Part shown: positions 5,216 to 19,978 of the stretch, piece by piece | Position numbering within the stretch: position 1 is the first letter of the stretch | How the letters are laid out: every line of letters starts with the position of its first letter | NCBI GenBank assembly: GCA_020356085.1 | Contig: CP070633.1 | Location: 1,444,954 to 1,478,983 of the forward strand | DNA: 34,030 nucleotides | Origin: Candidatus Coatesiibacteriota bacterium | GTDB lineage: Bacteria > RBG-13-66-14 > B26-G2 > WVWN01 | Direction of reading: 5' to 3' | Notes under the pieces: generated by a model | Told to the model about the DNA's origin: nothing | The model's input: the letters and a program-made list of their open reading frames with translations, nothing else | Database searches by the model: none | Made by a program: the position numbers and the translations under genes

Positions 5216-7081
5216 TTACGCCGGGTTTTTGCCCTGGCGGAGGCGGTAACTGACCGCGGCCAACGTAATGCCGAGAACCGCAGAAACGAATAGGACGATC
5301 AAGACGATACTTACGGGCCCCGGCCCTTCGGGTTGCGTGGGTTTTAACGGCGGTACGACGACGGTCGTAGGTTGGGAGAAAACGGAGCTCCGGGTTTTAA
5401 TATAGGTGTCGACGTATACCTGTTGGAAGAGGGCGAGGCTGGACAAGAGGTAAGGGTTATCTTCGTACGGAATCGAACGGGAGAACAACGAATAGGCCTG
5501 GGCGCCGCCGCGGTAGTCCGTCAACTCGTCGGGGGGATATACGGCCAACCCGGGGGCCAACGCCGACGGCTCGGCGCCGGCGGGCGCGCCGGCCAGGCCG
5601 GTCATCACTCGTTCGAGGTCGGTCAGATAAGCCTCGTACATCTCGTACGTATCTCGGAACGCCTCCTCGTCAGCCTCTTCCAGCATCTCGGCGAGGTTGG
5701 TGGCCAAAGCGTAACAACCATCCGGAGAATCGGCTTTAACGCTTATCCGCAACTCACGCGTGAGGCCCTTGGTCGGCGTCATGATAAGTTCGGCCTCGAT
5801 CATGTCCTCGAGCTCGAAGACGTCGTACTTCCGTTGGAGGCGGTTCGAAAGTTCGTTTAGGTACCACCGCGACATGCACTGCTCTTCGATAATCATCGGG
5901 CTGTGCAACCAGTGGTCCCCCACGATCCCCGTCGAGATCACGAAATCGGTTCTGTATTCGCGCGGCTTCACGAGCGCGTAGACGACGCCCAGGATCAGGC
6001 CCAGGACGAGCGTTACGCCCACAATCCAAGCCTGGCTGCGCAATACCTGGAGGAAATCCGTAAGCGTTAAACTTTCCTGTTCCGACAAACGCTGTACCTC
6101 TCGAGGGGGAGTCCGAGACGGTTTGGGGGCGGGAGGTTCACTCGGGCGAGGAGGCGGTTCCGCCGCGGGTTCGGGCGCCGGCTCCGGTTCCGGCGGCGGC
6201 GTTACCCGGACTTCCTTTTTTTTTTCGTCTTCGCCGGCGGCGCTCGTAGAAGCCTTCTCCGCCGATAACCGGTCGAAGAAGAACGCTATGATCAGGCCCA
6301 ACGCGAACGAGATGACGAAAGCTAGTACGATGAGGCGGAGGCGGTGGGGGCCGGAGGGGACCACCGGGACGACGGGCTCGACGATTACCCGCGTCGGGTG
6401 CGTATAAATCCCCATTAATAACTGCTGTTTCAGGTCGAGCTCGACTTCTTCCAAATGGAGGATATAACTCTCCTTCTCCTCCACGTAGCTGGCGAGATAC
6501 GACATCTCGACCTGGTTGACGCGACCCGAACTCGCGAGGCGGCCGATCTCGTCGTAGCCCCGGTCGATTTGCGCCTCGACTTTCGCGATATCCTCTTCGA
6601 CCTTATTAAGGTACTCGTAGTTGATTTCCCACGACGCCTCATAAAGCTCGTTATGCTCGGCGACTTCCTTAGCCATTATCGCGCGGCAGAGATTCGCGCT
6701 CTTGACCGGGTCGTCGGTTTGGACGATGATCTTGACGCCGCGGGTGGGCGCCCGGTCCCGGCTCTCCGAGAAAATGGACTCGATCGTCACCATATTCTGG
6801 AGGGCGCCGGCGGTATCTTTATAGTCCAGCTCCCGGCCGACGTCGGCGAGGAAGGATTTACTGCTCATCCGGTCGAGAACCGTAGAGGGAGGTTCGAGCG
6901 GATACTCCATCACCCGGCCGATTTCGATCGTCCCCTCCGCCTCGTAGGTGTCTTTTAACGTCAGCGAGAAGACGACCGCGCCCACGGTGACGACCAGCGG
7001 GACCCCTACGACCACCTTCCACTGCCGGCGTATCGTTCGAATAATATCCGAAATCGAGAAATCTTGGGTGTTGTTCGTCAT
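5216..7081 (-). CDS. Tandem Wzz-like polysaccharide chain-length/co-polymerase protein
   Basis: Two Wzz domains fused in one chain. In numbering from the upstream in-frame ATG at 7111, copy 1 has membrane helices at about 32-51 and 259-279. A Pro/Glu-rich cytoplasmic linker fills about 280-355. Copy 2 has helices at about 362-380 and 601-621. Each copy keeps a proline-rich stretch just before its second helix (PVVPVVPSGP, and PPLKPTQPEGPGP), as in Wzz/PCP proteins, with an alpha/beta plus coiled-coil periplasmic domain between the helices. There is no kinase domain. I chose the ATG at 7081 because Wzz proteins begin shortly before the first helix; ATGs at 7111 and 7105 are in frame and none has a clear Shine-Dalgarno. 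It is the first gene of the leftward unit with the ligase-like gene and hisC. It probably sets glycan length or links synthesis to export. Confidence 0.72.
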   Translation of the reverse strand: MTNNTQDFSISDIIRTIRRQWKVVVGVPLVVTVGAVVFSLTLKDTYEAEGTIEIGRVMEYPLEPPSTVLDRMSSKSFLADVGRELDYKDTAGALQNMVTIESIFSESRDRAPTRGVKIIVQTDDPVKSANLCRAIMAKEVAEHNELYEASWEINYEYLNKVEEDIAKVEAQIDRGYDEIGRLASSGRVNQVEMSYLASYVEEKESYILHLEEVELDLKQQLLMGIYTHPTRVIVEPVVPVVPSGPHRLRLIVLAFVISFALGLIIAFFFDRLSAEKASTSAAGEDEKKKEVRVTPPPEPEPAPEPAAEPPPRPSEPPAPKPSRTPPREVQRLSEQESLTLTDFLQVLRSQAWIVGVTLVLGLILGVVYALVKPREYRTDFVISTGIVGDHWLHSPMIIEEQCMSRWYLNELSNRLQRKYDVFELEDMIEAELIMTPTKGLTRELRISVKADSPDGCYALATNLAEMLEEADEEAFRDTYEMYEAYLTDLERVMTGLAGAPAGAEPSALAPGLAVYPPDELTDYRGGAQAYSLFSRSIPYEDNPYLLSSLALFQQVYVDTYIKTRSSVFSQPTTVVVPPLKPTQPEGPGPVSIVLIVLFVSAVLGITLAAVSYRLRQGKNPA

Positions 7082-7127
7082 AACGGATTCGGCGCCGCGC
7101 GCCATACACATAAAGGCATTTTAGCTG

Positions 7128-7156: not shown

Positions 7157-7170
7157 TAATTAATTACGAC

Positions 7171-7195
7171 GAAGGCCGCCCCGAGGGCGGCCTTC
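7171..7195 (-). terminator. Hairpin ending the trans-envelope machine operon
   Basis: A perfect 11-bp stem (GAAGGCCGCCC paired with GGGCGGCCTTC) with a 3-base loop lies 21 bases past the stop of the GYF TonB-like gene. On the reverse strand it is followed by an AT-rich stretch, not a clean U-tract, so termination may be partial and some read-through into the tandem-Wzz unit is possible. Confidence 0.6.
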
Positions 7196-7216
7196 GGTTG
7201 ACGGCAATCTTGCGGG

Positions 7217-8593
7217 CTACGCGCCCGCGGAGAAGAACACGAACGGGTACACGACCGTTACGTCTCCCGCGTCGATGGGCGGGAACCGCCACGTCATGAT
7301 CCGCGCGCATACCTCGGCTTCCATCGCGGGGTTCCCCATCGTGGAGGAAACGGTCGAACAGGCCGTTACGGCCCCGGAAGCCGCAATCGTGAACCGGACG
7401 ACGATTTTACCTTCCATCGTCGGGTTCGTCTTGAGGTACTTCTTGTAGATGTATTCGATGCCGGCCTTGCGTTGGTTGACGATGCGGGCGATAACGGCGC
7501 TGGAGCGCAGGCTATTGGAAGCCGCCACGCCGGTGATGCCGGGGGGCGCCACCGAAACGCGCGTTGCCCGGACTTTGGTCGACCCTACGCGCCGCGCTGT
7601 CCCCGCCAAGACGCCCAAACCGCTACCGCCGCCGAGCCCCAGACCCGGGCCGCCGGGGCCGAAACCGCCGCCGGTCCCGCGGCCTACCGTCCCGGAACCG
7701 GTAGTCTTCAAGCCGGCAATGTTACCCGCGATGAGGTCGAGGTCGCCGCCCGTACCCATAAGGTCCGCGACGGAACCGTCCGTCCCCATAGAGGTTATCA
7801 GGCCGACCACGCCGACCGAGGCGTAATCTTCCCCGCCCTGGCCGCCGCCGCCGCCCCCGCCGCCGCCGCCGCCGGTACCAGTCCCCGGCGTGGAGATTAT
7901 ATCCTCCGCCTCGACGAGCGGTTCGAGCGGGACTTCTATCGGCTTGTCGACAACCAACCTGGCAACGCGGCTCAGCACCTCCGCGGGCCGGACCTCTTCG
8001 GGTTCCGGCACCTCCACGAAACTTACCGTCGTGATAATGAGAATGCTGACGAAGAACATGGAGGCCAGCGTTTTAAGGTAATTGCGGTCGTCGGTCCGGC
8101 CCAAGTCGCGGCGGGCCTCTTTGCGCCACGCCGGCATCGTGACGGCGCGCTCGCGCTCGTCGCCGGCTTCGCCGTCGTCCAAATCCTCGAGTTCCTTCTC
8201 GAGCCGCGCCTCTTCGACCTGCTCGCGTATTTGTTTGAGGAAGAACGAACTTAGAAACGACACCTCGCCGGCCCGCGCCCACCGCCGTTCGCTCTCGAGC
8301 CAGATAAAATCCATGGCGTTGAACCGGCGCTCGGTTATCAGCCGCATGACCTCTTGGAGATCCATGGGGCCGATAGTATCCGCGCCGATGCGGACGTGGT
8401 ACGTGACGTCGTTTTTACCCAACACCGGCGCCAGGAAATCGACCTCGCCGGCCCGGGTCCATTCACTCCGCTCGGGGGCCCATACGTAATCGTCGCCCCC
8501 CAACCGGCCGTCGCGCGCCCAGCGCGCGACCTCCTCCGGCGTTAGCGGCCCGTAATTCTTGCCGTCAACGTGGATGTAAAGGTTTCCGGCCAT
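7217..8593 (-). CDS. AgmX/GltJ-like TonB-type protein with tandem GYF domains
   Basis: 458 residues. Two GYF_2-like domains lie in the cytoplasm at about 4-55 and 64-115: YIHVDGKNYGPLTPEEVARW, then YHVRIGADTIGPMDLQEVMR, each ending W-x-RAGEV. A charged linker follows, then one membrane helix at about 173-192 and a long Gly-rich periplasmic region with an 11-glycine tract (241-251). The C-terminal domain (about 362-458) is AgmX/PglI-type TonB-like, with GKIVVRFTIAASGAV, W435-RFPP and DVTVVYPFVF. In Myxococcus xanthus, AgmX (GltJ) combines a zinc ribbon, a GYF domain, a membrane helix and this C-terminus; no zinc ribbon is seen here. It is the last gene of the operon, 107 bases after a paralogue. 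The likely role is to carry ExbB/ExbD energy to outer-membrane or periplasmic partners, with the GYF domains receiving cytoplasmic signals. I see no good Shine-Dalgarno before the ATG. Confidence 0.82.
   Translation of the reverse strand: MAGNLYIHVDGKNYGPLTPEEVARWARDGRLGGDDYVWAPERSEWTRAGEVDFLAPVLGKNDVTYHVRIGADTIGPMDLQEVMRLITERRFNAMDFIWLESERRWARAGEVSFLSSFFLKQIREQVEEARLEKELEDLDDGEAGDERERAVTMPAWRKEARRDLGRTDDRNYLKTLASMFFVSILIITTVSFVEVPEPEEVRPAEVLSRVARLVVDKPIEVPLEPLVEAEDIISTPGTGTGGGGGGGGGGGQGGEDYASVGVVGLITSMGTDGSVADLMGTGGDLDLIAGNIAGLKTTGSGTVGRGTGGGFGPGGPGLGLGGGSGLGVLAGTARRVGSTKVRATRVSVAPPGITGVAASNSLRSSAVIARIVNQRKAGIEYIYKKYLKTNPTMEGKIVVRFTIAASGAVTACSTVSSTMGNPAMEAEVCARIMTWRFPPIDAGDVTVVYPFVFFSAGA
7841..7873 (-). 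repeat. GGC-type trinucleotide repeat encoding 11 glycines
   Basis: A near-pure run of Gly codons (CCG/GCC triplets on the forward strand, interrupted once) in the periplasmic linker of the GYF TonB-like protein. Slippage in whole triplets would change linker length without breaking the frame. Confidence 0.75.
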
Positions 8594-8607
8594 AATCTAA
8601 GTGGCCC

Positions 8608-8623
8608 AGCCCGCTACCGGGCT
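8608..8623 (-). other. Small hairpin just upstream of the GYF TonB-like gene
   Basis: AGCCCG pairs with CGGGCT around a 4-base loop, ending 15 bases before the ATG at 8593. It could hide or shape the ribosome-binding region, where no clear Shine-Dalgarno is visible. No T-run follows, so I do not call it a terminator. Confidence 0.35.
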
Positions 8624-8658
8624 ACTTTTGCCACCTCACTTTACGTTTGCAACCGGGC

Positions 8659-8694
8659 CGCCGGGCGGCGGCCTAACGGGGCCGCCGCCCGGCG
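8659..8694 (-). other. Strong GC hairpin between the two TonB-like paralogues
   Basis: A perfect 15-bp inverted repeat (CGCCGGGCGGCGGCC and its complement) with a 6-base loop starts 6 bases after the stop of the FHA-like TonB gene. No U-tract follows on the reverse strand. It may stabilise the 3' end of the upstream message, or act as a partial attenuator that lowers expression of the last gene. Confidence 0.6.
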
Positions 8695-8700
8695 CGTTGT

Positions 8701-10017
8701 CTACACCTCCGACGCCACGAAGACGAACGGATACACGACCGTAACGTTACCCGAGACCACGGGCGGGAACTTCCAGCTCCGCACCCGGCTCAGGATGGAC
8801 GACGTCAACGGCGCGCAGTTGAGCGTGTCCGTAACGATGCTCGCGCTCGATACGCGGCCGTCGGCCTCGATCGTGAAGCGGATCGTTATCTTGCCGCCGC
8901 CCAGGTTCGGGTTCTTCTTCAACGCGGAGTTATACGCGTTCTGAATCCCGGCCAGGTGGCGCCGGATAACGCTCGCGATAACGGAGGGCGAGCGGTTCTT
9001 CTCGCCGGCCGCCGCTCCGCCCACGGAAGACGGGGCCGCCGCCGAAACCGATACCCTCTTTTTATGGAGACCCGGGCCGCCGGGGCCGCGCGCCCCGCCG
9101 CCGCCGGCTAGGCCGGCTATGCCGTCCATGCCGCCGCCCAGGCCCGTTCCGCCGGCACCGCCGGCGCCTAAGCCCCCTCCCAGGCCGCCGGCGCCGCCCG
9201 CGCCTTTCAACCCGCCGATACCGCTCACGATACCGTCGAGGTCGCTTCCGCCGCTGCCCGAACCGAGCAGGTCGGCGATGGAGCGGCCGGAACCCGTGCC
9301 CAGAGTCGTAATGGCCGCGACGACGCCCGTCGTGGGAATGCCGGCGCCGATTTCGCCGCCGCCGCCGCCGCCGCCGCCAACGCCCATCCCTTCGCCTTCA
9401 GCTATTTCTTCCACGATACCGACCGCGTCGGATTCGGGGACTTCGACCTTCGTAACGCGGCGGACGAGGTCTTCGACGCGGACGTCCGTCTGCTCAATTA
9501 CGGCGTATTGGGAGCCGATCATGAACGCTATCAGGATAGCGCCCACCACCGCCAACGTCCGGTAATATCGGACGTTGTCCGGGTCGATCCACGTCGCTAC
9601 CGCCTCGTAGCCGGGGCCCCGCTTCGGAATCGCTACTTTCTCGACCGGAAGCGGAGCGCGGTACCCGAACTCGAAGGTCATCCCTTCGGCTTCCACGAAG
9701 CCCGAGCGGCCGCGCTGGATCGGGACGACGTACCGGCCGCCTTCGCGCTTCAGGAGGCCGAGCGTCTTGAGGTGGCCGAACGAAAGCATTTCGCCTTCGC
9801 CGCCAATCTCGCCGCGGTAATTTTCGGCCAACATTAGTTCCGCCTCGCCGCTTTTCCCGAGCCGGAACAATACCGCGGATTTCTTCTCACCGGCCGTGAT
9901 GATATGGTCGGTGCGGGCCCCGCCGATCGTTAGTTTATCCGCCAGTTCCATTTCCCGCAGGACCTTACCGTCGCGGATAACGCGGAGCCCAAGGATTTCT
10001 TTGCGTACTTTCGCCAT
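8701..10017 (-). CDS. PglI/GltG-like TonB-type protein with FHA-like N-terminal domain
   Basis: 438 residues. An all-beta N-terminal domain at about 8-120 (KLTIGGARTDHII, GHLKTLGLL, GFVEAEGMTFEFGY) resembles the FHA-like modules that precede AgmX/PglI C-terminal domains in myxobacteria, as I recall them. One membrane helix lies at about 152-170, then a Gly-rich periplasmic region with an 8-glycine tract (214-221). The C-terminal TonB-like domain (about 342-438) has GKITIRFTIEADGRVSSASI, W415-KFPP and NVTVVYPFVF. It is a clear paralogue of the next gene downstream: both keep GVV-x-x-IT, S-(I/V)-ADL-(L/M)-G and LD-x-I...GLK just outside the membrane. The start is ATG at 10017 with a 12-base perfect Shine-Dalgarno. 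It sits 34 bases after the second ExbD. Probable role: force or signal transducer of the ExbB/ExbD motor. Confidence 0.8.
   Translation of the reverse strand: MAKVRKEILGLRVIRDGKVLREMELADKLTIGGARTDHIITAGEKKSAVLFRLGKSGEAELMLAENYRGEIGGEGEMLSFGHLKTLGLLKREGGRYVVPIQRGRSGFVEAEGMTFEFGYRAPLPVEKVAIPKRGPGYEAVATWIDPDNVRYYRTLAVVGAILIAFMIGSQYAVIEQTDVRVEDLVRRVTKVEVPESDAVGIVEEIAEGEGMGVGGGGGGGGEIGAGIPTTGVVAAITTLGTGSGRSIADLLGSGSGGSDLDGIVSGIGGLKGAGGAGGLGGGLGAGGAGGTGLGGGMDGIAGLAGGGGARGPGGPGLHKKRVSVSAAAPSSVGGAAAGEKNRSPSVIASVIRRHLAGIQNAYNSALKKNPNLGGGKITIRFTIEADGRVSSASIVTDTLNCAPLTSSILSRVRSWKFPPVVSGNVTVVYPFVFVASEV
9355..9378 (-). repeat. GGC trinucleotide repeat encoding 8 glycines
   Basis: Eight consecutive Gly codons, a pure CCG/GCC triplet run on the forward strand, in the periplasmic linker just outside the membrane helix of the FHA-like TonB protein. 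It is in the same relative place as the 11-Gly tract of its paralogue. Confidence 0.75.
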
Positions 10018-10024
10018 AATCAGC

Positions 10025-10036
10025 GATCACCTCCTT
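10025..10036 (-). promoter_or_regulatory. Extended Shine-Dalgarno of the FHA-like TonB gene
   Basis: AAGGAGGTGATC is a full-length complement of the usual 16S rRNA 3' end and lies upstream of the ATG at 10017. It fixes the start and suggests high translation. The ExbD genes just upstream have similar sites (AAGGAGGTGA at 10595-10604 and AGGAGGTGAT at 11161-11170). Confidence 0.85.
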
Positions 10037-10051
10037 TCGGGCGAGAATCGC

Positions 10052-10591
10052 TTACCGGTTCTTTAAAACGGCGAGGGAAATTTCGCCGTATTCGGCGCGG
10101 CCGCAAGTGTACATCACCCGTTTGAGCAATTCGAAGGTGATTAACTTATCGCCCTGGATAATTACCTCGCCGCGGAACTCCTTCGTGTCGTCGAGCTCCG
10201 CGATGGCGCGCTTCAGGTCGGCGATCCGCACCATCTCCTCGTACAACCCGTCAATGACGAGGTCGGGGTCCTTGAGGGCTTCGGACGATTCGGCGACCTT
10301 CTTCCCCTCGACGACGATGGACTTGCCCGTCACGGCGACGATAACCGACGACGTCGGCATATTCTCGACGCGGGCCTCCGGGAGCGTCAAATCCGGCGCG
10401 ATCGACATGATGTCGCCCTCCGCCGAGAAGTTCTGGAAGAGGAAGACGCACAGGATGACGAACGTATCGATAAGGGACACCAACATCAGGCGGGCTTCCC
10501 TCTTACGCCCTTCCTCGGCCCGCTCCTTCATCCTCACGTGGAGCCGGCCCCGGGTGCCTTTCTCTTGGATCTTACTTGCCTGTTTGGCCAT
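10052..10591 (-). CDS. ExbD/TolR-like proton-motor subunit (second copy)
   Basis: 179 residues with a basic cytoplasmic N-terminus of about 34 residues, longer than in typical ExbD. One membrane helix at about 35-53 (LMLVSLIDTFVILCVFLFQ) contains the conserved proton-carrying Asp (D42). A periplasmic ExbD-type alpha/beta domain follows, with VIVAVTGKSIVVEGKKV and GEVIIQGDKLITFELLKRVM. It pairs with the ExbB and the first ExbD upstream, 90 bases away. ATG at 10591 is preceded by AAGGAGGTGA, six bases from GGAGG to the start. Keeping the Asp suggests it is an active stator part, not a structural relic. In M. xanthus the AglR motor also has two TolR-like partners (AglQ and AglS). Confidence 0.85.
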   Translation of the reverse strand: MAKQASKIQEKGTRGRLHVRMKERAEEGRKREARLMLVSLIDTFVILCVFLFQNFSAEGDIMSIAPDLTLPEARVENMPTSSVIVAVTGKSIVVEGKKVAESSEALKDPDLVIDGLYEEMVRIADLKRAIAELDDTKEFRGEVIIQGDKLITFELLKRVMYTCGRAEYGEISLAVLKNR

Positions 10592-10681
10592 GTCTCACCT
10601 CCTTCGGCGTCCGCTGCGGCGCTACGGCCGCGTTCCGCCCACCGCTAGTCGGGTAACTATTCATTGGCGACCAGCGCGCCC

Positions 10682-11155
10682 TTACTGCGTAATGTTACCC
10701 GATAGCGAAATATCCGGGAAGCCTTCCATAACGCAAACGTCCATCGCCTGGATAATGTCGTTGTACACGATCTCCGGCTCGGCGATAATGATGACTGACT
10801 CCTGATCCGGATACTGCTTTTTAACGTCCTTTAACGTCTCGGTCAGTTTTTCCCAGTCGAAACTATCTTTCTTCCGGGGGATGAGAGGCAAAATGGCGCC
10901 CGCCCCGCCGACGCGCAATCCCTCGTCGGTGATGATAAGCGAGAGATTGAGTTCGCCGCCTTGGGGCGGCGTGGCGCCCGTGGTCCCGGCCCCCGCCGCG
11001 GTCGGCAACGAAATCTCGATCACGGCCGTCTGCAGCAGCGAGGCCGACATCAACAGGAAGCAGCAACACACCACCAGCATGTCGATGAACGGGACCAGCT
11101 CCGGGTCTTCCCACACCTCGCGGTGTTTTATTCTTTTCTTGGGGGCAAATGCCAA
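10682..11155 (-). CDS. ExbD/TolR-like proton-motor subunit (first copy)
   Basis: 157 residues: a short cytoplasmic N-terminus, one membrane helix at about 21-43 with the conserved Asp (FIDMLVV, D25) and an unusual Cys triplet (VCCCF, 30-32), then a periplasmic ExbD domain with LNLSLIITDEGLRVGG and ESVIIIAEPEIVYNDIIQAM. A Gly/Thr-rich insert sits near residues 53-67. The start is TTG at 11155, chosen because AGGAGGTGAT (11161-11170) is placed correctly for it; an ATG nearby is in another frame. It lies 33 bases after the ExbB gene. It should assemble with that ExbB as a proton-driven stator, possibly as a heterodimer with the second ExbD. Confidence 0.87.
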   Translation of the reverse strand: MAFAPKKRIKHREVWEDPELVPFIDMLVVCCCFLLMSASLLQTAVIEISLPTAAGAGTTGATPPQGGELNLSLIITDEGLRVGGAGAILPLIPRKKDSFDWEKLTETLKDVKKQYPDQESVIIIAEPEIVYNDIIQAMDVCVMEGFPDISLSGNITQ

Positions 11156-11160
11156 CGGAC

Positions 11161-11170
11161 ATCACCTCCT
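11161..11170 (-). promoter_or_regulatory. Shine-Dalgarno that decides the TTG start of the first ExbD
   Basis: AGGAGGTGAT on the reverse strand, with nine bases between GGAGG and the TTG at 11153-11155. No in-frame ATG is nearby, so this site is the main support for the TTG start. Confidence 0.8.
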
Positions 11171-11188
11171 ACGGGTGAGCCCCGCGGA

Positions 11189-11827
11189 TTACGCTTTGCC
11201 TTCGAACTCGGCCAGGGCGTTGATAATCGGCACCATGCTGGCGTCGATGTCGTTATTGATGCGCGTCACGCGGCCCTGGAGCATGCCGTAGACGATAAGC
11301 GAGGGGATAGCCACCATCAGGCCGAACGCGGTGCAGTTCATGGCCTCGGAAATACCCTCCGAGAGCATCGTCGCCTTTTCGGCTGCGGAGGCGCCGCCCA
11401 ACGCGGCGAAGGTCTTAATCAGACCCGTAATCGTCCCCAGCAGGCCCAACAGAACGGCGACGTTGCCGAGCATCGCCAGATACGGCGTGCGCTTATCGAG
11501 CCGGGGCAGCTCGGAGAGACTGGCCTCGTCCACGGCGTCTTGGATATCGCGCATACTACCTCCGGCCGCGGAGAGAGCCGCGCGCGTAATCCGGTACAGC
11601 GCGGCGTCGGAGCGGTTGGCCAGCGCTTTGGCCTGCTCGACCTTGCCTTGCTTGATCAAGTTGAGGACTTCCCGCGTGAACCGCTCCGCGTTCACGTTGG
11701 ATTTGATGAACACAAACCAGACGCGCTCGATGATGATCGATATCGCGAAGATACCGGTCACCAGAATGGGGTGCATCCCCCATCCGCCGGCCCGATAGTG
11801 TTCGGCTAAGAAGTTAAAAAATTCCAT
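11189..11827 (-). CDS. ExbB/TolQ/MotA-family proton channel
   Basis: 212 residues, a typical ExbB length. Three membrane helices lie at about 18-40, 115-141 and 166-187. The family motif LLGLLGTITGLIKTF (126-140) and EGISEAMNCTAFGLMVAIPS (157-176) are both clear, with a cytoplasmic loop between helices 1 and 2. ATG at 11827 follows AAAGGAG. It is the only ExbB in the window but has two ExbD partners directly downstream, a 1 + 2 arrangement matching AglR with AglQ and AglS. It lies 75 bases after the IEGRLEKP-motif gene. It would form the inner-membrane proton channel that powers the two TonB-like proteins. Confidence 0.93.
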   Translation of the reverse strand: MEFFNFLAEHYRAGGWGMHPILVTGIFAISIIIERVWFVFIKSNVNAERFTREVLNLIKQGKVEQAKALANRSDAALYRITRAALSAAGGSMRDIQDAVDEASLSELPRLDKRTPYLAMLGNVAVLLGLLGTITGLIKTFAALGGASAAEKATMLSEGISEAMNCTAFGLMVAIPSLIVYGMLQGRVTRINNDIDASMVPIINALAEFEGKA

Positions 11828-11902
11828 CGGTCACGTACTCCTTTCTGTCATCGGTTCCGAGGTCCCGCTACCTCCGCCGGAGCCGAGGCGCGGCCTCCGC
11901 GC

Positions 11903-12436
11903 CTATTTCGCGACGCGCTCCCGGCCGCGGTCGATAAGAATCAATACTAAGGCGGAGGCGGCCGCGGCCCCGCACGTTATGCCGTAAACCTTAACTTGTC
12001 CCCATTCCTCGTTATAAGCCTGGTATCCGGCCGCCGCCCCCGTCGTGGCCGCGGTGGTTACCGCCATCCAGAGCAACGGGTTCTTGACGTAGTCGAACTT
12101 CGTTTCCTTGATCGCCCGTTCGAACTCCTCTTTATCGATGGGGCGCAGGATGTCGTCCCAGAAGTCGCGCGCGAAACGGACCGTCGCGAAGTCGGGCTGT
12201 TGGCGCTTGATAAATAACGCTACGGGCTTCTCGAGGCGGCCTTCGATGACGGTCTCCTCGAACATATACTCCCCCGTCGCGAGCTTCTCGGCCCGGACGC
12301 CCGCTTCCTCTTTAATCCCGGCGTCGCCCTCGCCACCGGCTTCGCCGCCCTCTTGGGCCGCCGCCGGCGCCGAGGCGAAAGCCAACGCCGCTACTATTAT
12401 AACTCCAAAACCGTGGCGTGACAAGTATTTTGCCAT
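11903..12436 (-). CDS. Small exported protein with IEGRLEKP motif, possibly GltF/CglF-like
   Basis: 177 residues from the ATG at 12436, chosen because it gives a clean signal peptide (HGFGVIIVAALAFASAPAAA then QEGG) and has GGGGAAAGGG-like purines upstream; an in-frame extension to 12505 looks spurious. A Gly/Glu-rich stretch is followed by VIEGRLEKPVALFIKRQQPD and then a segment with RFARDFWDDI. I recall a similar motif (an EG-x-x-x-(K/R)P core, then spaced Arg/Phe residues) in small GltF/CglF-type proteins of myxobacterial machines, but I cannot verify this here. Two hydrophobic segments near the C-terminus suggest membrane anchoring. Its place between the TPR lipoprotein and ExbB supports a role in the complex. 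Confidence 0.6.
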   Translation of the reverse strand: MAKYLSRHGFGVIIVAALAFASAPAAAQEGGEAGGEGDAGIKEEAGVRAEKLATGEYMFEETVIEGRLEKPVALFIKRQQPDFATVRFARDFWDDILRPIDKEEFERAIKETKFDYVKNPLLWMAVTTAATTGAAAGYQAYNEEWGQVKVYGITCGAAAASALVLILIDRGRERVAK

Positions 12437-12607
12437 GATTTCGACCCTTTCCCCGAAACGCCTCGCCGCCGAGGGGCGACTGGCGTTTGCGGGCCCGACC
12501 AGCAAATCCGCCGTCGAGTACGACGAGCGCCGCCGCGCATTCCGCTACTTATCGTGCCCTTTCCCAACCCCCATTCGGGGCGCGGGACCCCGTCTCACCG
12601 AACCGCC

Positions 12608-15600
12608 TTAAAACTCCTCGCCCAGCGGTTCTTCCTCGGGCTCCGCCCCGGTATCGCCGAACTCCTCGGGGGTCCCGACCGACTCGAAGTCGATGTCGCC
12701 TCCGGCCTCCGCCTCGTAGCCGCTCTCCTCGCCCGCGCCGGGCTCAGGCAGCGTCTCTTCGCCGGCCCCCGGTTCCGGTAAGGTCTCGGCCTCGCCGCCG
12801 GCGGCGGGTTCGGTGGTCGGTTCCTCGGTCGGCGTCACCGTTTCCCCCTCTTCCATCGGAGGCGTCTCCTCCTCGAGGGGCGTCGGCTCACCGAACTCCT
12901 CGAACCCCTCGCCCTCGGAGGGGCCGAACTCGGCCTCCTCGCCCGGCACGGGGAGCAGCTCGCCTCCCTCCTCGACCGGCGGCGGCCATTCCTCCATCGG
13001 CATCTCGCCCTCTTCGGGGGCGATACCGCCGAACTCCTCGCCCGGCACGGCGGTTTCCTCGAACGCCGGCTCGGGCACCGGGAAGCCGCCCTCCGGGACC
13101 AGCGCGAAGCGCAGGCCGTAGGAATCGTCGCGCGCCCGGAGGATCTCCACGCACACGACGTTATCGCCGAGATGAAGCGCGCCGGAGAGGTCGTAGGTGT
13201 CGGGTTTGACCCAAGGGTCCTCGGCGTAGGCGTCGGTTTGACCGACGAGCGTCCCGTTCACGTAGAGCTTGTAGGCGCCGCGCGTCTGAATCACGGCCTC
13301 GTAGTTGCCCGGGTCGTAGGTGAACGAGAACTTCTTGCGGAAGTACACGTTCTCGTCGAGGCTGCCGCCCCAGATCGTCTGCGGCTCGCCCGGTACGTTG
13401 GCGACTACCTTCTCGAGGTCCTTCTCCCGCCAGTAGCTCGCGCCGGCGGGGGTCCACACGGCGTCGTCGTAGGCAACCTCCAGCCACCCCTCCTCCAACG
13501 TGTTCGAGGTTAACCAGGAGGAGTCGCTGGTGAAGCCCTGGTTCCCGACGTCCTCGTACTTGACGACCTCGTAGGGGACGATGGCGAGGAGCTGGTTGTA
13601 AGCCTTCCGCGACCAGGGGGAGGTAATCCCCGCAGCCTCGGCAATACTCACGGCCTCGCCGTATTCCGTGATGGCCTTATCCTCCAGCGGGAGCGCCTGT
13701 TCTTCCAACTCCGAGGTATAGGTGTAGTACGCGTCCTCCAGGAGGAATTTCCGCTGGTCGTCGTCGGGCAGCGTTTCCCAGTACTCCGGCCGCAGCTCCT
13801 CCGGAATCTCGGCGTTGCGGAGCGCGTCGCGGAAGTCGAGGTAAACGTCGGCCATCCGGCAATGGGCGGCCACGGACCACTTCCCCACGCCCATGTCGGC
13901 GCACTCGGTGTAACCGGCGATAAGGTCCTGCGACTGCTTGACCTTCTTCTGGAGGTTAGCCTCCATGACCTTTTGGGGCATCACGAACTCGATGCTCTCG
14001 TAGTCGTCGTACTTGATGTCCGTGATTTTAAACATCGACTCGGCGGCGTATTTCTCGGTGCCGCCCATCTCGAACCCCTCGATCGCGGCGTACTTATAGA
14101 CCCCCGCAACTTTCTTGTGGTTTTCGAGGGCGTCTTCGTTGCGGCCGAGCCGCTCCTCGGCCCGGGCCTGGCGGAAGGTCGCCTCCAGCAGCGGCTTCGC
14201 CTCCTCGGGATACTCCTCCGCAAAGCGGGCGAAAGTGTTGGCGGTGCGCGTCCAATCCTGCTGCTGCTCGTACATCAAGCCCGCGCGGAACAACGAATCG
14301 CGTCCCAACCCGGTATTTTTATACTGGGGGTGGTCGGCGATGGCGAGGTAGACGTTGGCGGCATCGTCCCAGTTTTCCTGGCGTTCGTAGCACTCCGCCG
14401 CCTTCTCGTAGCCCGTCTTGACGTCCTCGGCTTGCGGGTAGGCTTTGACGTATTCCAAATACACCCGCGCGGCGTTATCCCAGTCGCGGATCTTATAATA
14501 GGTATCGGCGGCCTTGCCGAGGCTGAGGCGGCCAACGTCCGTCCCCTGGTGATCGGCGGCGTTGGATTCGTACGCCTGGGCCTCCGCCTGTTTGGCCGCG
14601 AACGCGGCGGCTTCGATCGGCGGGAGGGGCGGGTAGAGCACGACGAAGTCCTCGTATTCCGCCTCCTCCAGGAGTTCGGCCTCGATCTCCGGCGCCTCGA
14701 TCTCCTCGATCTCGATGCCGGCGCCCTTCATTTCCGCGGCCTTGAGGCCGGTCAGGCCGGCCAGGCTCTTGGCGCGGTCGAGGTTCTCGTGGACGTTCCG
14801 TTCTTTGGCTTCCCGCTCGGTCTTGGCGTACCACTGCCGCGCGAGCGCGTACTTCGCCTCGGCGCCCTCGTAGGACCCCGCCTTTTCGTAGAACTCGGCC
14901 TCGTTAAAGTAGGACTTCGCAATGCTCTCGACGGCGTTGACGTAGAGCTGGTCGTGTTCTTTGGGGTTGGCCTCGCCGAGGGGCTGCGGGTAGTTATTCA
15001 CGAGTTTTTCGTACGCCTCGCGGGCCCGCTCGTAGTCGTCGACGAAGAAATAGACCTCGCCGACCTTGGAGAGAACGGAGGGAATTTCCTGGCTCTGCGG
15101 GTAGCGGTCGACGAAGGCGTTGCACGCCCGGACGAGATTGGCCTCGTTCAGCGTCAACTGCTTGACCGGCATCGCAATGGGCCCGTACGTCTGGAGGCCG
15201 TTGGTCGCGGGCTCGGCCCCGGCCGCCTCCGATGGCGAGGGCTCGGCCTTCCCTTTCTCCTCCCCCTCCCGGTCCTTATCGAAAATGTCCGAGTAGGCGA
15301 CGATGGCGTTGAAGAGGGCGTTTTCCTGCGTTATCCCCTTCTCGGCCCAGTGGTCGACCTTGTACCGCTCGAGGTCGGTATACCCGAGAGCCGTCTTCTG
15401 GTACTGGTCGCCGGCGTTGGGCAGGTCGCCGATATTATCGTACGCCTGAGCCAGGTAGAAGTTGACGTGGTAGGCCTTCTCGTTGGTGGGGAAGGAAGCC
15501 AGGTATTGGTTGAAGCGGTTGATGGCCTCGCCGTAGAGTTCCTTCGATTCTTCGGGGTGCGTTTTCGTCTTACGGTCGGCGTGGACGTTAAAGTATACGG

Positions 15601-16885
15601 CGACCTCGTAGAGGGAGTTCTCCCACCGCTGGAGCGCTTTGTGGCGGACGTCGAGGCTGTCCTGGTTCTCGTACCACTCCGAGCCCGGGCCGTACCGGTC
15701 GACGATCCGGACGCGGGTGTTGTGGGCGTTGTCGTAATCCTCCTCGCGGAGGTAGCACTCGACCAGCGAGTCGAGCAGCTCCGGCGCCTTGTCGTAGTCG
15801 GGGTAGTATTCGAGAACCGTCTCGTAGGCCGTGGCGGCGGCCTTTAGTTTATCCTGCTTGTAGAGGTAAACGTCCCCCAGCTTGTGGAGCACCCCCGGCG
15901 AGTAGTCCCGCACTTTTTCGCCGCGGAACTCGTCGCTGTAGTGACCCAGCGCTTTGGCGACCGCGGTCTCGTCGTTAGGGTCGCTCGACCACTCGGTAAG
16001 CGAGATGGCCGTAAACTCCATCGCCTCCTCCGTCAAGACCGATCTCTTATCCGAGCTTTCGATCAGCTGCGTAAAGGAGTCGATCGCCTTCTGGTATTCG
16101 AGGGAGGAGACGCCGATGTCGCCCTGGTTGTAGAACGCCCACCCCATTTTGTACAGCGCCTTGTCGTAGAAATTCGGGTTCTCAGACGATACCAACGCGT
16201 AGTACTTTACGGCCTTGTCGAACTCGTATTGGTCGAAGAAGTACTCGCCGATGCGGAAGTACGCCTCCGGCACGAATTTCGATTCGGGGTATTGTTGGGT
16301 TAATTTATAGAGGGTCCGGGCCGACTCCTCTTCCTCGCCCTGGGCTTTAAGGCAGTAGCCCAGGCCGTAGTAGGCCACGTCGGCGTAGGGGAAATCCTTA
16401 TATTTGAGGGCGATCTGCTGGTAGGCCGCGATGGTCTTCTCGTAGTGGGGCTGCGGTTCGGGCTCGTAGAAGATCTCGCCGGCCTCCCCCGCGGACTCCA
16501 GCCGCAACTGGTAATCGTCCAGGGCGAGGACGTGGTCCTCCTCCGAGCGTTCGAGGTAGAGTTCGCCCAGCGCGATCAGGACGTCGGGCGTATAGGGGCT
16601 GATGGGGTATTTGCCGAGAAACTCCTCGTATTTCCGGATCGCCGCATCGCGTTTCTGGCGCTCGTCCGTGGCGAGTTTCTCGGTTTTGGAAAGGCGTTCG
16701 CCCTCGAGCTGCTCGATCTCTTCCTGGCGCTCTGCGATTTTGCCCTGAAGATCCTCGATCACCGCGTCTTCTTTGGCGAGTGTGTCCTCGCGGGTGATGA
16801 CGACCTCTTTGGGTTTGCAGCCGACGATTATAAAAATACAAATCGCGGCCGCTACCGTCGCCGCGCCATATCTCCGATAAATCAT
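12608..16885 (-). CDS. Giant TPR lipoprotein with galactose-binding-like domain and acidic tail
   Basis: 1425 residues. A lipoprotein signal ends at I-V-G-C (Cys23), and Lys at +2 fits transport to the outer membrane. A coiled coil lies at about 34-75. TPR repeats (Tol-Pal/YbgF and BamD style, for example VAYYGLGYCLKAQGEEEESA) fill about 75-1090. Residues about 1115-1265 resemble the beta-sandwich of galactose-binding-like domains, as on glycosidases: W-L-x-V-x-YDDAVW, VYFRKKFSF, LYVNGTLVG, LHLGDNVVCVE. The last 160 residues are Pro/Glu-rich. It lies 63 bases after the smaller TPR gene. It probably scaffolds the machine in the periplasm or at the outer membrane, comparable to AgmU/GltD, and the sugar-binding-like domain suggests contact with glycan. 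Ligand unknown. Confidence 0.8.
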   Translation of the reverse strand: MIYRRYGAATVAAAICIFIIVGCKPKEVVITREDTLAKEDAVIEDLQGKIAERQEEIEQLEGERLSKTEKLATDERQKRDAAIRKYEEFLGKYPISPYTPDVLIALGELYLERSEEDHVLALDDYQLRLESAGEAGEIFYEPEPQPHYEKTIAAYQQIALKYKDFPYADVAYYGLGYCLKAQGEEEESARTLYKLTQQYPESKFVPEAYFRIGEYFFDQYEFDKAVKYYALVSSENPNFYDKALYKMGWAFYNQGDIGVSSLEYQKAIDSFTQLIESSDKRSVLTEEAMEFTAISLTEWSSDPNDETAVAKALGHYSDEFRGEKVRDYSPGVLHKLGDVYLYKQDKLKAAATAYETVLEYYPDYDKAPELLDSLVECYLREEDYDNAHNTRVRIVDRYGPGSEWYENQDSLDVRHKALQRWENSLYEVAVYFNVHADRKTKTHPEESKELYGEAINRFNQYLASFPTNEKAYHVNFYLAQAYDNIGDLPNAGDQYQKTALGYTDLERYKVDHWAEKGITQENALFNAIVAYSDIFDKDREGEEKGKAEPSPSEAAGAEPATNGLQTYGPIAMPVKQLTLNEANLVRACNAFVDRYPQSQEIPSVLSKVGEVYFFVDDYERAREAYEKLVNNYPQPLGEANPKEHDQLYVNAVESIAKSYFNEAEFYEKAGSYEGAEAKYALARQWYAKTEREAKERNVHENLDRAKSLAGLTGLKAAEMKGAGIEIEEIEAPEIEAELLEEAEYEDFVVLYPPLPPIEAAAFAAKQAEAQAYESNAADHQGTDVGRLSLGKAADTYYKIRDWDNAARVYLEYVKAYPQAEDVKTGYEKAAECYERQENWDDAANVYLAIADHPQYKNTGLGRDSLFRAGLMYEQQQDWTRTANTFARFAEEYPEEAKPLLEATFRQARAEERLGRNEDALENHKKVAGVYKYAAIEGFEMGGTEKYAAESMFKITDIKYDDYESIEFVMPQKVMEANLQKKVKQSQDLIAGYTECADMGVGKWSVAAHCRMADVYLDFRDALRNAEIPEELRPEYWETLPDDDQRKFLLEDAYYTYTSELEEQALPLEDKAITEYGEAVSIAEAAGITSPWSRKAYNQLLAIVPYEVVKYEDVGNQGFTSDSSWLTSNTLEEGWLEVAYDDAVWTPAGASYWREKDLEKVVANVPGEPQTIWGGSLDENVYFRKKFSFTYDPGNYEAVIQTRGAYKLYVNGTLVGQTDAYAEDPWVKPDTYDLSGALHLGDNVVCVEILRARDDSYGLRFALVPEGGFPVPEPAFEETAVPGEEFGGIAPEEGEMPMEEWPPPVEEGGELLPVPGEEAEFGPSEGEGFEEFGEPTPLEEETPPMEEGETVTPTEEPTTEPAAGGEAETLPEPGAGEETLPEPGAGEESGYEAEAGGDIDFESVGTPEEFGDTGAEPEEEPLGEEF

Positions 16886-16948
16886 ACTTTCACCACCCTG
16901 ACTTAGACCCGCCGGGCCGCGAGACCTTTTAACCGGCGTTGCTCGTCT

Positions 16949-18874
16949 TTAGGGCATCTCCTCCCCGGACTCCCCCTCACTTTCGGCCCCCGGTTCCGGC
17001 AATTCCTCCTCGGACTCCGAGGAGGCGCCGCCCTCGCTTTCGGCCTCCCCGCCTTCACTCGCCCCAGTTTCTTCGGCGGGCGGGGGTTCTTCACCGGTCT
17101 CTTCGGCCGGCGGTTCCGAAGGCGCCGACTCGGCCGGCGTCTCGGCGGGCGGCGTTTCGCCGGGGCCCGTCTCCGACGGCCCCTCGCCCTCCGGCGCCAA
17201 ACCGGGTGTTTCGCCGGTGCCCGTCCCGGCGCCGCTCGGCGGCGGCGTATACAACGGCCGATAACTGCCGGTCGTGCCGGGTTCGACGGTCTCCTGTTCG
17301 GGGATGACGTTGTACTTTTGGATCTCGCGGCGGTAAATTTGTTCGGGTGTCTCTAGTTCTTCGTCTTTTTGCCCGATTATGATCTGCTCCTTGCGGAGCT
17401 CGTGGATGTGGACTTCTTTTTCGAGCCGGGTCTTCTCCTCTTTTATGACGCCCAGCTTCTCAATCATCTTCTCGTCGTACGAAATCAGCTCTTTCTCGAT
17501 TTCCTGCGCCTCGCGGAAGGTAATCGTCGCCAGGCCGTAATCGGCGCCCAGCATGACGTTGCCGCCGGTAATCGAGCGGCCGGTGAACCACAACTCGAGG
17601 TCGTTGAGGTCTTCCAGGAGGCGGTTAACTTCCTGCTGCTCGAGCCGGATTTGGGCTTGGACGTCGGCCCGGGCTTTCTCCTTCGCGATTTTGTTGAGTT
17701 CCTGGAGCGCGGTGCTGACCCGCTTTACGTTTTCGACCTCGGTGATAATGCCCTCCAGGATCTTGGCCACCTGGGGATCGCCGGCGAATTCGGCCGCGAG
17801 CGAAAAGTTGTTTACGACGTACTCGTACGTGTCGATCGCTTTGTCGTAATTCCCCTGGCCCAGGTAGCAATGCGCCAACGTCAACCAGGCCTCCGCGTAT
17901 ACTTCCGAGCCCTCCATGTGGTCCGTAATCCGCTTCATCAGGCCCGCCGCGCGCCGGTAATGGCCGTCGGCGTCGTCCGCTTCCTCCTCCTGCTCCGCCC
18001 GTTTAATCTCCACCCACCCCAGGCCGAAGACGGCGTTGTCGTAGTTGGAGGAATCGCGGCTCGAGACGTTATTAAATTCGTCCTCCGCCTGGTCGTACCG
18101 GCCCATTTGGTAATGGAGTTGGCCGAGCGTAACGTGGGCTTTGCCCGCCAACGTCCGGCCGAGAGCCGATTTGTGGCGGATTTGGAAGATGTTCTGGAGC
18201 TGGGATATCGCTCGTTCGACGCCGGAGGGGACGTCGTTGTCCCGCATCCCCTCGCGGAGGAAGCACAGCGCGAGCGAGTATTGGCCGAAGCCGTAATACT
18301 CGGTATCGGGGGGGATCTCCTGGAACGTCTTCTTGGCGTTGGCGAAGTCGTTAATGCTGTAGAACGCGAGGCCCGCGAAATAGCGCGCGCCGGCGATGTC
18401 GGGCGAATTCGGGTAGTTCCGAATGAGCTGCTCGTAATACCCGACGGCGGCGTTGTACCGCTCCATCTTCAGGCTGGACAGCTCGAGGCGGTACAGCGAG
18501 CGCGGGACATATTCGGTTTGGGGGAAATTTTTTAGGATGCGGTTGAAGGCGGAGGCCGCGTCGGTATACATACCGGCCTGGTAATAAGCCTCCCCCATCA
18601 TAAACGTCGCGCGGTCGACTTTCGAGAAGGAGGGATAGAGGAGAACGACCTCTTTGAACTTTACGGCGGCGTCGTAATACTGTTCCCGCTTAAACAGGCG
18701 GTAGGCCCGATCGTAGGCCGTGGAGGCCAACGCCTCGAATTCTTTAAATTTTTTCCCTTTGCGGAGCTCCTCGGCGTATTCGCCGGTGACCTCGTCCGCC
18801 GCCCAGAGGCGGCCTACGCCCAAAACGGCCGTCGCCGCCAATACGCATACGCCGATACGGAATATCCGAGACAT
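16949..18874 (-). CDS. Exported TPR protein with coiled coil and acidic Pro/Glu/Ser-rich tail
   Basis: 641 residues from ATG at 18874; a TTG nine bases upstream (18883) is also in frame, and neither has a clear Shine-Dalgarno. A signal peptide (FRIGVCVLAATAVLGVGRLWA, with cleavage likely at the last Ala) leads into about eight TPR repeats at about 35-365, such as KFKEVVLLYPSFSKVD and LGQLHYQMGRYDQAEDEF. Two coiled-coil stretches span about 380-510, and the last 110 residues are low-complexity Pro/Glu/Gly/Ser. It lies 25 bases after the barrel gene, as the second gene of the operon. It likely bridges the barrel and the large TPR lipoprotein, broadly like GltE/AglT, although no lipobox is seen. 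Confidence 0.78.
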   Translation of the reverse strand: MSRIFRIGVCVLAATAVLGVGRLWAADEVTGEYAEELRKGKKFKEFEALASTAYDRAYRLFKREQYYDAAVKFKEVVLLYPSFSKVDRATFMMGEAYYQAGMYTDAASAFNRILKNFPQTEYVPRSLYRLELSSLKMERYNAAVGYYEQLIRNYPNSPDIAGARYFAGLAFYSINDFANAKKTFQEIPPDTEYYGFGQYSLALCFLREGMRDNDVPSGVERAISQLQNIFQIRHKSALGRTLAGKAHVTLGQLHYQMGRYDQAEDEFNNVSSRDSSNYDNAVFGLGWVEIKRAEQEEEADDADGHYRRAAGLMKRITDHMEGSEVYAEAWLTLAHCYLGQGNYDKAIDTYEYVVNNFSLAAEFAGDPQVAKILEGIITEVENVKRVSTALQELNKIAKEKARADVQAQIRLEQQEVNRLLEDLNDLELWFTGRSITGGNVMLGADYGLATITFREAQEIEKELISYDEKMIEKLGVIKEEKTRLEKEVHIHELRKEQIIIGQKDEELETPEQIYRREIQKYNVIPEQETVEPGTTGSYRPLYTPPPSGAGTGTGETPGLAPEGEGPSETGPGETPPAETPAESAPSEPPAEETGEEPPPAEETGASEGGEAESEGGASSESEEELPEPGAESEGESGEEMP

Positions 18875-18899
18875 CGAATTCAAGGTGCGGGGCCGCGGC

Positions 18900-19892
18900 T
18901 TATGGGCCCAGCAGTTCCTCGCGGATTTCTTCGACCCTCATTTCCAGGATCTCGCGCCGCTGGCGGGCTTGTTTCAAACGCTCCTCCGCCCGCTTCAAAC
19001 GCGAACGCAGCGCCCGGAGACGTTCCGTCTCCGCCTTACGGTACAGGGGGCCGACGTACAACTGAACGGCGATCCCGCCCTTCGGGGAATCGTATTCGTC
19101 CTCGTATACGATTCCCGTCGTGGTCTTGGTCGTGTGGGCGCCCCACCACGCCTCCTCCAACTCCGAGACGTAGGGCGTTACGACCAGGCCGTACGGAAGC
19201 TTGAACCGGGCGCCGAGGTTGAAGTCGCGGCCGTCGACTTCGCCGATTACCGAAATCCGCTCGTCGAGGAAATGGTATTCGACCGAGCCGAACATGCCCT
19301 GCCACGGCTTCGAATGGGGCCAGTTGGTGTTCGTCCCCTGGAACCGTGCGCTCCCCACGCCGACGTTGACCGTGACCGGGACGCGGATGATATTGCGCAT
19401 ATTCTTGCTGGCCACGACGTAGTAGGCGTAATTCTGCCGGTCGTTGTCCGCGTACCAGCAGGACTTGGCCCCATAGGGGCCGATCTCGCGATTATCGCTC
19501 AAGTTGAAGATCCCGACCGCGAACGCCGGCCACCGCGAACTCTCTTTCTTGACCAGGACCTTGACGTCGCCGGCGTAAGTCTCGGGGTCGTACTCCCGAA
19601 CGCCGAGCTCTAGCCGGTCCAGCAGCCCGATTTGGAAAAACGCGTCGAGCTCCCGTAAGTTCTTCTGGAACGGTTCGCCGGTGTGGGTGTAGAAATCCGT
19701 CGTACTACTGGTGATGGCGTAACTCGAGACGCCGACGTTGAACTGCGTGTTCTCCATTACGTAAGCGTTCGGCGTATCCAATACGCCGTTCTGGATATAC
19801 ACGCCTCCATACGCGGCCGCCGCGAATAACACCACCCCCGCCGAGGTGACTATACAGCCCCAGCTCGTCCGAGCTCTCGCTAAACCACCCAT
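18900..19892 (-). CDS. Predicted outer-membrane beta-barrel protein with C-terminal coiled coil
   Basis: 330 residues with a signal peptide ending near AAAAYG. Residues about 30-283 alternate short amphipathic strands typical of barrels: FNVGVSSYAI, LDRLELGVREY, PAFAVGIFNL, YAYYVVASKN, VPVTVNVGVG, MFGSVEYHFL, NLGARFKLPYGLVVTPYV, GGIAVQLYVG. The style recalls YjbH or other exopolysaccharide-associated barrels. Unusually, residues about 285-327 form a charged Arg/Glu/Leu coiled coil after the last strand instead of ending in an aromatic residue. That tail would sit in the periplasm, where it could bind the TPR proteins encoded next. It is the first gene of the operon, about 50 bases downstream of the predicted transcription start. 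Exact family not recognised. Confidence 0.68.
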   Translation of the reverse strand: MGGLARARTSWGCIVTSAGVVLFAAAAYGGVYIQNGVLDTPNAYVMENTQFNVGVSSYAITSSTTDFYTHTGEPFQKNLRELDAFFQIGLLDRLELGVREYDPETYAGDVKVLVKKESSRWPAFAVGIFNLSDNREIGPYGAKSCWYADNDRQNYAYYVVASKNMRNIIRVPVTVNVGVGSARFQGTNTNWPHSKPWQGMFGSVEYHFLDERISVIGEVDGRDFNLGARFKLPYGLVVTPYVSELEEAWWGAHTTKTTTGIVYEDEYDSPKGGIAVQLYVGPLYRKAETERLRALRSRLKRAEERLKQARQRREILEMRVEEIREELLGP

Positions 19893-19949
19893 TTCGTTAG
19901 TCTTTCGTCGATGGAATTAAAGGAAATCCTCTATACACCACCATCTAAC

Positions 19950-19978
19950 ATTATAGTCGTTAAACGGGCAAGTGTCAA
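19950..19978 (-). promoter_or_regulatory. Perfect consensus sigma70 promoter of the nine-gene machine operon
   Basis: On the reverse strand TTGACA (19973-19978), a 17-base spacer and TATAAT (19950-19955): both hexamers match consensus exactly. Predicted transcription starts near 19943, giving a leader of about 50 bases before the barrel gene. With the terminator at 7171-7195 this defines a unit of about 12.8 kb. No terminator is visible after murA, so read-through could add to it. Confidence 0.88.

Follow-up and report, generated by a model that had tools for sequence, protein, structure and literature searches.

Layout of the nine-gene operon

The window (the whole 34-kb stretch of DNA that was analysed) belongs to a single-contig genome of 2.34 Mb, 78% complete, of an uncultured member of Candidatus Coatesbacteria (NCBI name Coatesiibacteriota). 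An earlier sequence-only reading had stated that the host need not be a myxobacterium, and indeed it is not. An open reading frame check confirmed nine of nine genes, g1 to g9, all on the minus strand and together spanning positions 7217 to 19892. The operon is preceded by a promoter (TTGACA-N17-TATAAT, 19950 to 19978, minus strand) matching the sigma-70 consensus at 12 of 12 positions, and it is followed by a terminator hairpin with a stable fold (about 7170 to 7196, minus strand). The same promoter boxes were found in two congeners. The hairpin is conserved in congeners as well, where it is followed by the T-run TTTTTATT; the hairpin of the window has no good T-run. Thus, the description of nine co-directional genes between a perfect promoter and a terminator held: all the genes are present and both signals recur in congeners. 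Past the terminator, on the same strand, lies a gene encoding a Wzz-like double chain-length protein (5216 to 7111; Wzz, 6e-10). With a conserved TTGACA box of its own (7156 to 7151), it constitutes a separate unit outside the operon.

Envelope, motor and transducer proteins

The first gene, g1 (18900 to 19892), encodes an exported protein in the GltA/GltB position, which is a probable outer-membrane beta-barrel with a C-terminal coiled coil. Its N terminus is signal-like, its AF2 model contained strands and a helix at residues 286 to 327 at low confidence (pLDDT 49.6), and the best Foldseek matches were outer-membrane barrels. The barrel with a coiled coil proposed earlier was backed by the helix and by barrel-like matches, both of which come from this low-confidence model. 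Homologues of g1 were found upstream of such loci in Hyd24-12 (1.5e-41) and in a Desulfuromonas-labelled MAG (3e-43), and no sequence match was found between g1 and the barrels of a complete myxobacterial glt cluster (locus L176).

The next two genes encode the TPR protein and the TPR lipoprotein of the sequence-only reading, and TPR families were detected in both. The exported protein g2 (16949 to 18883) occupies the GltC position, which is colinear with GltC in L176. It scored 41 bits against the GltC model, with a cut-off of 450; generic TPR models scored higher, and the NCBIfam GltC and GltE matches on g2 were dropped as proof for that reason. The lipoprotein g3 (12608 to 16885; lipobox IVGC) is GltD-like. 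Most of its length aligns colinearly with GltD of L176 (E values of 3e-27 and 1e-11), and it showed no match to the 1390-residue TPR protein adjoining GltD in that cluster, so that g3 represents the GltD-type TPR protein of the core complex. A C-terminal jelly-roll of g3 (residues about 1083 to 1285, DNA about 13016 to 13633) was predicted as a beta-sandwich (pLDDT 64). Its best PDB matches in Foldseek were in the sugar-binding region of GH2 enzymes, namely beta-galactosidases and beta-glucuronidases (E value of 2e-6), and a weak Pfam match was likewise to the GH2 sugar-binding domain. We predict from these structural matches that this GH2-like domain binds sugars.

The small exported protein g4 (11903 to 12505, with a likely true start at 12436) carries a VIEGRLEKP motif. 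In a genome-wide search it was the sole match to the NCBIfam CglF model in the window's genome (E value of 8.6e-4; 5.5e-4 in another search), with a score far under the curated cut-off of 90 bits. The scores of this model in Polyangium and Bdellovibrionota genomes were similar to that of g4, and no match was obtained in control genomes. In profile comparisons, g4 was linked at 98.4% to proteins of KSB1/Calditrichota, at 96.7% to the GltF of Myxococcota-type compact operons and, less strongly, at 72.9% to canonical GltF; the compact-operon set was in turn linked to canonical GltF at 94.1%. A direct link between gammaproteobacterial and Myxococcota GltF was weak (15.6%) and leans on the KSB1 intermediate (91.9%) and on position. 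These links support g4, previously noted as a small IEGRLEKP protein, as a putative GltF/CglF relative with a score under the curated cut-off.

The motor is encoded by g5 (11189 to 11827), an ExbB/AglR-like protein (MotA_ExbB, 2.9e-28), by the first ExbD g6 (10682 to 11155; AglQ/S-like, ExbD 1.6e-16), which keeps its membrane Asp25, and by the second ExbD g7 (10052 to 10591; ExbD 6.1e-10), which keeps Asp42. The operon thus holds the AglR/ExbB protein and the two AglQ/AglS-type ExbDs of the core complex. In the ExbB tree, g5 clustered with Myxococcota ExbBs (support 87/85), within a Glt-type clade apart from most generic ExbBs. The tree splits the ExbBs of the two Coatesbacteria classes, yet a single clade was tolerated (p-AU 0.118), and we do not claim a replacement of the motor between them.

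We then compared the membrane aspartates of the two ExbDs across 99 loci, a set that contains near-duplicates and second motors, so that the numbers count loci and not independent events. The second ExbD kept its Asp in 99 of 99 loci. The corresponding position of the first ExbD was D in 46, N in 49, G in 3 and S in 1, i.e., the Asp was lost in 53 of the 99, and at least five changes of this residue were required on the ExbB tree. The pair is D/D in the window and in its class, as reported for AglQ and AglS (review PMC9389320), for which the same review states that it is unknown whether they form hetero- or homodimers. An AglQ D28N mutant is already known to be paralysed (PMC3858216). Since the loss is confined to the first ExbD, it would favour an ExbD heterodimer.

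The last two genes encode single-TM proteins with AgmX/PglI TonB-like tails (NF033768, cut-off 40), at 90 bits for g8 and 95.7 bits for g9. The GltG-like protein g8 (8701 to 10017) scored 89 bits against the GltG model, which covered its C-terminal part, and has its TM at residues 149 to 167. Its N terminus appeared FHA-like by eye; domain searches gave no FHA match in g8 and a weak one in one orthologue. The GltJ-like protein g9 (7217 to 8593) contains two GYF_2 domains (3.8e-20), the first of which (residues 4 to 59) matched PDB 7z3c, "Adventurous gliding motility protein X" (E value of 0.027). It scored 44.5 bits against the GltJ equivalog model (cut-off 450), and no zinc ribbon of the GltJ type was seen in it. 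Taken together, the profile searches gave Pfam or NCBIfam matches for the ExbB, both ExbDs and both AgmX/PglI-tail proteins that had been named, with the tails above cut-off and the GltF, GltC and GltJ matches below their curated cut-offs. According to the review, GltF is similar to a TonB box and GltG and GltJ are similar to TonB (PMC9389320), which fits the gene order of GltF, motor and tail proteins.

Relatives of the operon and polarity genes

The synteny survey called for by the sequence-only reading revealed conserved gene order. It was kept in three congeners, over all nine genes in two of them and up to a contig end in the third, and in another class of the phylum, where the jelly-roll is a separate gene. 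In two members of the window's class, the genes are divided between a motor part and a TPR-GltF part. The order is moreover colinear with the myxobacterial glt cluster L176. An order that recurs across congeners and in another class is more than chance and, together with the AgmX/PglI tails and the colinearity, it bears out the proposed membership in the Glt/Agl/Nfs family. The Agl-Glt/Nfs family thus gains, in one more phylum, a member that is genuine and conserved.

Its compactness had been put forward as a special trait, and this part of the claim did not stand. A core complex gathered in one region had already been described by Luciano et al. (2011; PMC3169522) for Gammaproteobacteria, a betaproteobacterium, Geobacter and Fibrobacter. 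Our survey of 80 loci found GltF-ExbB-ExbD-ExbD-GltG modules in many more phyla; we consequently dropped compactness as a novelty. The variant features here are a GltJ-like protein and the motor inside one operon, a sugar-binding-like domain, and MglB-MglA without pili.

Like the Agl-Glt machine of Myxococcus xanthus, the set comprises an ExbB with two ExbDs that both bear the Asp, inner-membrane proteins of FHA/TonB-like and GYF/TonB-like build, a putative GltF, a GltD-like and a second TPR protein, and a probable outer-membrane barrel, with MglB-MglA elsewhere in the genome. It differs in being a single operon that includes the motor, in having one probable barrel rather than GltA/B/H, in lacking recognisable separate genes for GltE, GltI and GltK within the operon, in the fusion of a GH2-like domain to the GltD-like protein, and in belonging to a class without type IV pili. 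The M. xanthus Nfs system, whose proteins are paralogues of GltA to GltH, has the same kinds of transducer parts and acts on capsule-type glycan. Here, unlike in Nfs, the motor lies in the same operon, a GltJ-like protein absent from Nfs is encoded, and evidence of sporulation is lacking. With the Group B core of Gammaproteobacteria, Geobacter and Fibrobacter (Luciano et al. 2011) the operon shares TPR proteins, ExbB, two ExbDs and a GltG-like protein in one region, and also a GltF-like gene upstream of exbB, with a weak link for the Gammaproteobacteria. In contrast, the gammaproteobacterial loci of the survey as a rule carry N in the first ExbD and have neither a second AgmX-tail protein nor MglA.

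Of the 52 loci that had a GltF match, 46 carried the GltF-like gene upstream of exbB at a distance of at most 800 nt, and GltF was single-copy in 13 of 14 genomes of the phylum, the remaining genome being 70% complete. gltF had served as a gliding marker because it seemed restricted to the Myxococcales and the Bdellovibrionales (Keilberg et al. 2012, PMC3441718), and GltF, A and B had been placed in the ancestor of these two orders, with J later still (Luciano et al. 2011, PMC3169522). Our survey extends GltF-like genes to KSB1, Calditrichota, Nitrospinae, Nitrospirae, Hyd24-12 and Coatesbacteria and, with a weaker link, to Gammaproteobacteria. That such genes adjoin the motor in many phyla makes the marker weaker and suggests that the full machine arose earlier.

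The sequence-only reading had found no MglA-like GTPase or other polarity regulator. This is correct for the window and does not hold for the genome, in which a Roadblock gene (MglB; L143:6094-6594) and a small GTPase gene (MglA; L143:6627-7220) lie side by side. The GTPase matched M. xanthus MglA structures (E value of 2.4e-86), and the Roadblock protein matched the MglB model at 1.1e-25, below the model cut-off. The genome thus encodes the MglA/MglB polarity pair of the gliding set, and the two adjacent genes were present in 14 of 14 genomes of the phylum. PilT-family ATPases were found in most genomes of the phylum's other class and in none of the seven genomes of the window's class, one of which is 100% complete; the flagellar export protein family FlhA was found in no genome of the phylum. 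The usual other client of MglA is therefore missing from the window's class. In 2012, pili were present in every genome in which MglA, MglB and RomR were all intact (PMC3441718). MglA serves other purposes in many genomes. Among 50 other genomes with such ExbB loci, MglA was absent in 18, nearly all of them Gammaproteobacteria, so that the core machine can do without it. A phylum that has both the machine and MglBA, with one class devoid of pili and flagella, offers a natural test of the control exerted by MglA when only the Glt-type machine is left.

Proposed working of the machine and alternatives

An MglA-steered surface machine of the Glt/Nfs type is the most likely reading of these data. 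In this scheme, which draws on homology and on the presence of both membrane aspartates, proton flow through ExbB and the two ExbDs would drive the single-TM proteins g8 and g9. Their TonB-like tails would, judging from the architecture, extend into the periplasm and engage the small exported g4, in line with the TonB-box-like role proposed for GltF. By analogy with M. xanthus, g4 may be joined to two TPR proteins of the periplasm, g2 and g3, as well as to the probable outer-membrane barrel g1. Given the jelly-roll on g3, the output may grip a glycan at the surface or in the periplasm, and the cytoplasmic GYF domains of g9 are a likely dock for direction control by MglA with MglB. The machine would then carry a surface polymer or an adhesin along the cell in one direction, and the result would be either gliding or the arrangement of a polymer. 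That a Glt/Nfs-family machine acts here as a PMF-driven surface transporter is, in our estimate, probable; gliding in particular is put somewhat below an even chance. The organism may thus glide or move surface sugars with machinery that had so far been known chiefly from a single group of bacteria.

The strongest alternative is a non-motile, Nfs-like organiser that drags capsule or exopolysaccharide round the cell surface as the cell stays put, a reading that we hold as a real possibility well short of probable. It has the precedent of Nfs, since Agl-Nfs moves capsule-type spore-coat glycan in M. xanthus and AglR binds GltG/NfsG (PMC3858216), and it would account for the GH2-like domain of g3, although jelly-roll domains are not always sugar-binding. 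Polysaccharide genes next door had been noted earlier: the window does have Wzz and Wzc genes close to the operon, and Wza or Wzc genes adjoin the core in three further loci (L082, L086 and L091). However, the Wzz-like gene is a transcription unit of its own and its linkage to the operon is lost outside the genus, which weakens the proposed link to a polysaccharide operon. The GH2-like domain, the glycan moved by Agl-Nfs and the Wza/Wzc neighbours support a polymer-gripping output, and they would be compatible with gliding and with polymer arrangement.

Ordinary Tol-Pal, which shares with the operon a TolQ/TolR-type motor, a TonB-like transducer and a TPR protein, was ruled out, since TolB was found in none of the seven genomes of the class. 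With TolB missing and the gene order conserved, neither of the outcomes that the sequence-only reading had named as fatal to it came about. This same absence would suit a housekeeping machine for outer-membrane maintenance that stands in for Tol-Pal in the class, as would the near-universal presence of the operon in the phylum, as judged by GltF, and the fact that, besides its ExbB, no clear ExbB/TolQ turned up in the 78%-complete genome of the window. We nevertheless consider such a substitute unlikely: class relatives have further ExbB genes, the operon encodes no TolB-like protein, and its GYF and AgmX parts and GltF are foreign to Tol-Pal. Nutrient uptake by an ordinary TonB-ExbB-ExbD system would explain the ExbB, ExbD and TonB_C families and was ruled out as highly improbable, because none of the nine genes encodes a TonB-dependent receptor and the parts are wrong for it, with two ExbDs, two AgmX-type tails, GltF and GltD-like proteins, and an ExbB in the Glt-type clade.

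Returning to the MglA-steered Glt/Nfs-type machine, we tentatively propose, at rather less than even confidence for the whole, that it is a phylum-wide surface motor of the Agl-Glt type whose host class here has no pili or flagella, that its GltF and GltJ-like parts were not myxobacterial inventions, and that the repeated loss of Asp from the first ExbD only, across many phyla, would reflect an obligate ExbD heterodimer. With two-ExbD motors losing the Asp so unevenly, the question of AglQ/AglS hetero- or homodimers becomes directly testable.

The membrane aspartate of tandem ExbD proteins

Among the 99 loci carrying two ExbD genes (L033-L130), the proton-carrying Asp was replaced by N, G or S in the first of the two tandem ExbD proteins in 53 cases and was lost from the second in none. 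Within the Coatesbacteria class other than that of the window, the residue at this position of the first ExbD drifts among N, G and S. In the Polyangiales-type loci, two motors lie side by side, the second ExbB-ExbD-ExbD set being divergently oriented (L068, L070, L072-L074, L077, L079, L084, L087, L088 and L094).

Possible control signals inside the operon

A promoter-like site (TTGTCA-17-TATAAT, 11/12 match; window 12424-12396) was located within the start of the GltF-like gene. Between g8 and g9, we observed a very stable hairpin (window 8593-8700), which might adjust how strongly g9, the GltJ-like gene, is expressed.

Related genes elsewhere

Outside the operon, the window's genome encodes a second protein with GYF and a TonB/AgmX tail (G000:C1:2335432; L156:4368-5678). 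AgmX-type TonB tails were also found in the products of two genes that lie side by side (G000:C1:2216076-2216723; L153:2865-4754), one of the products, of only 125 aa, consisting of the tail and little else. In a genome from another phylum, a zinc-ribbon protein (L040:13880-15376) is encoded upstream of a compact Glt-like operon; a zinc ribbon is also part of Myxococcus xanthus GltJ. In the window's genome, mglB-mglA is followed by a gene for a DUF4388 protein (L143:7234-8361), an arrangement observed in several Coatesbacteria genomes.
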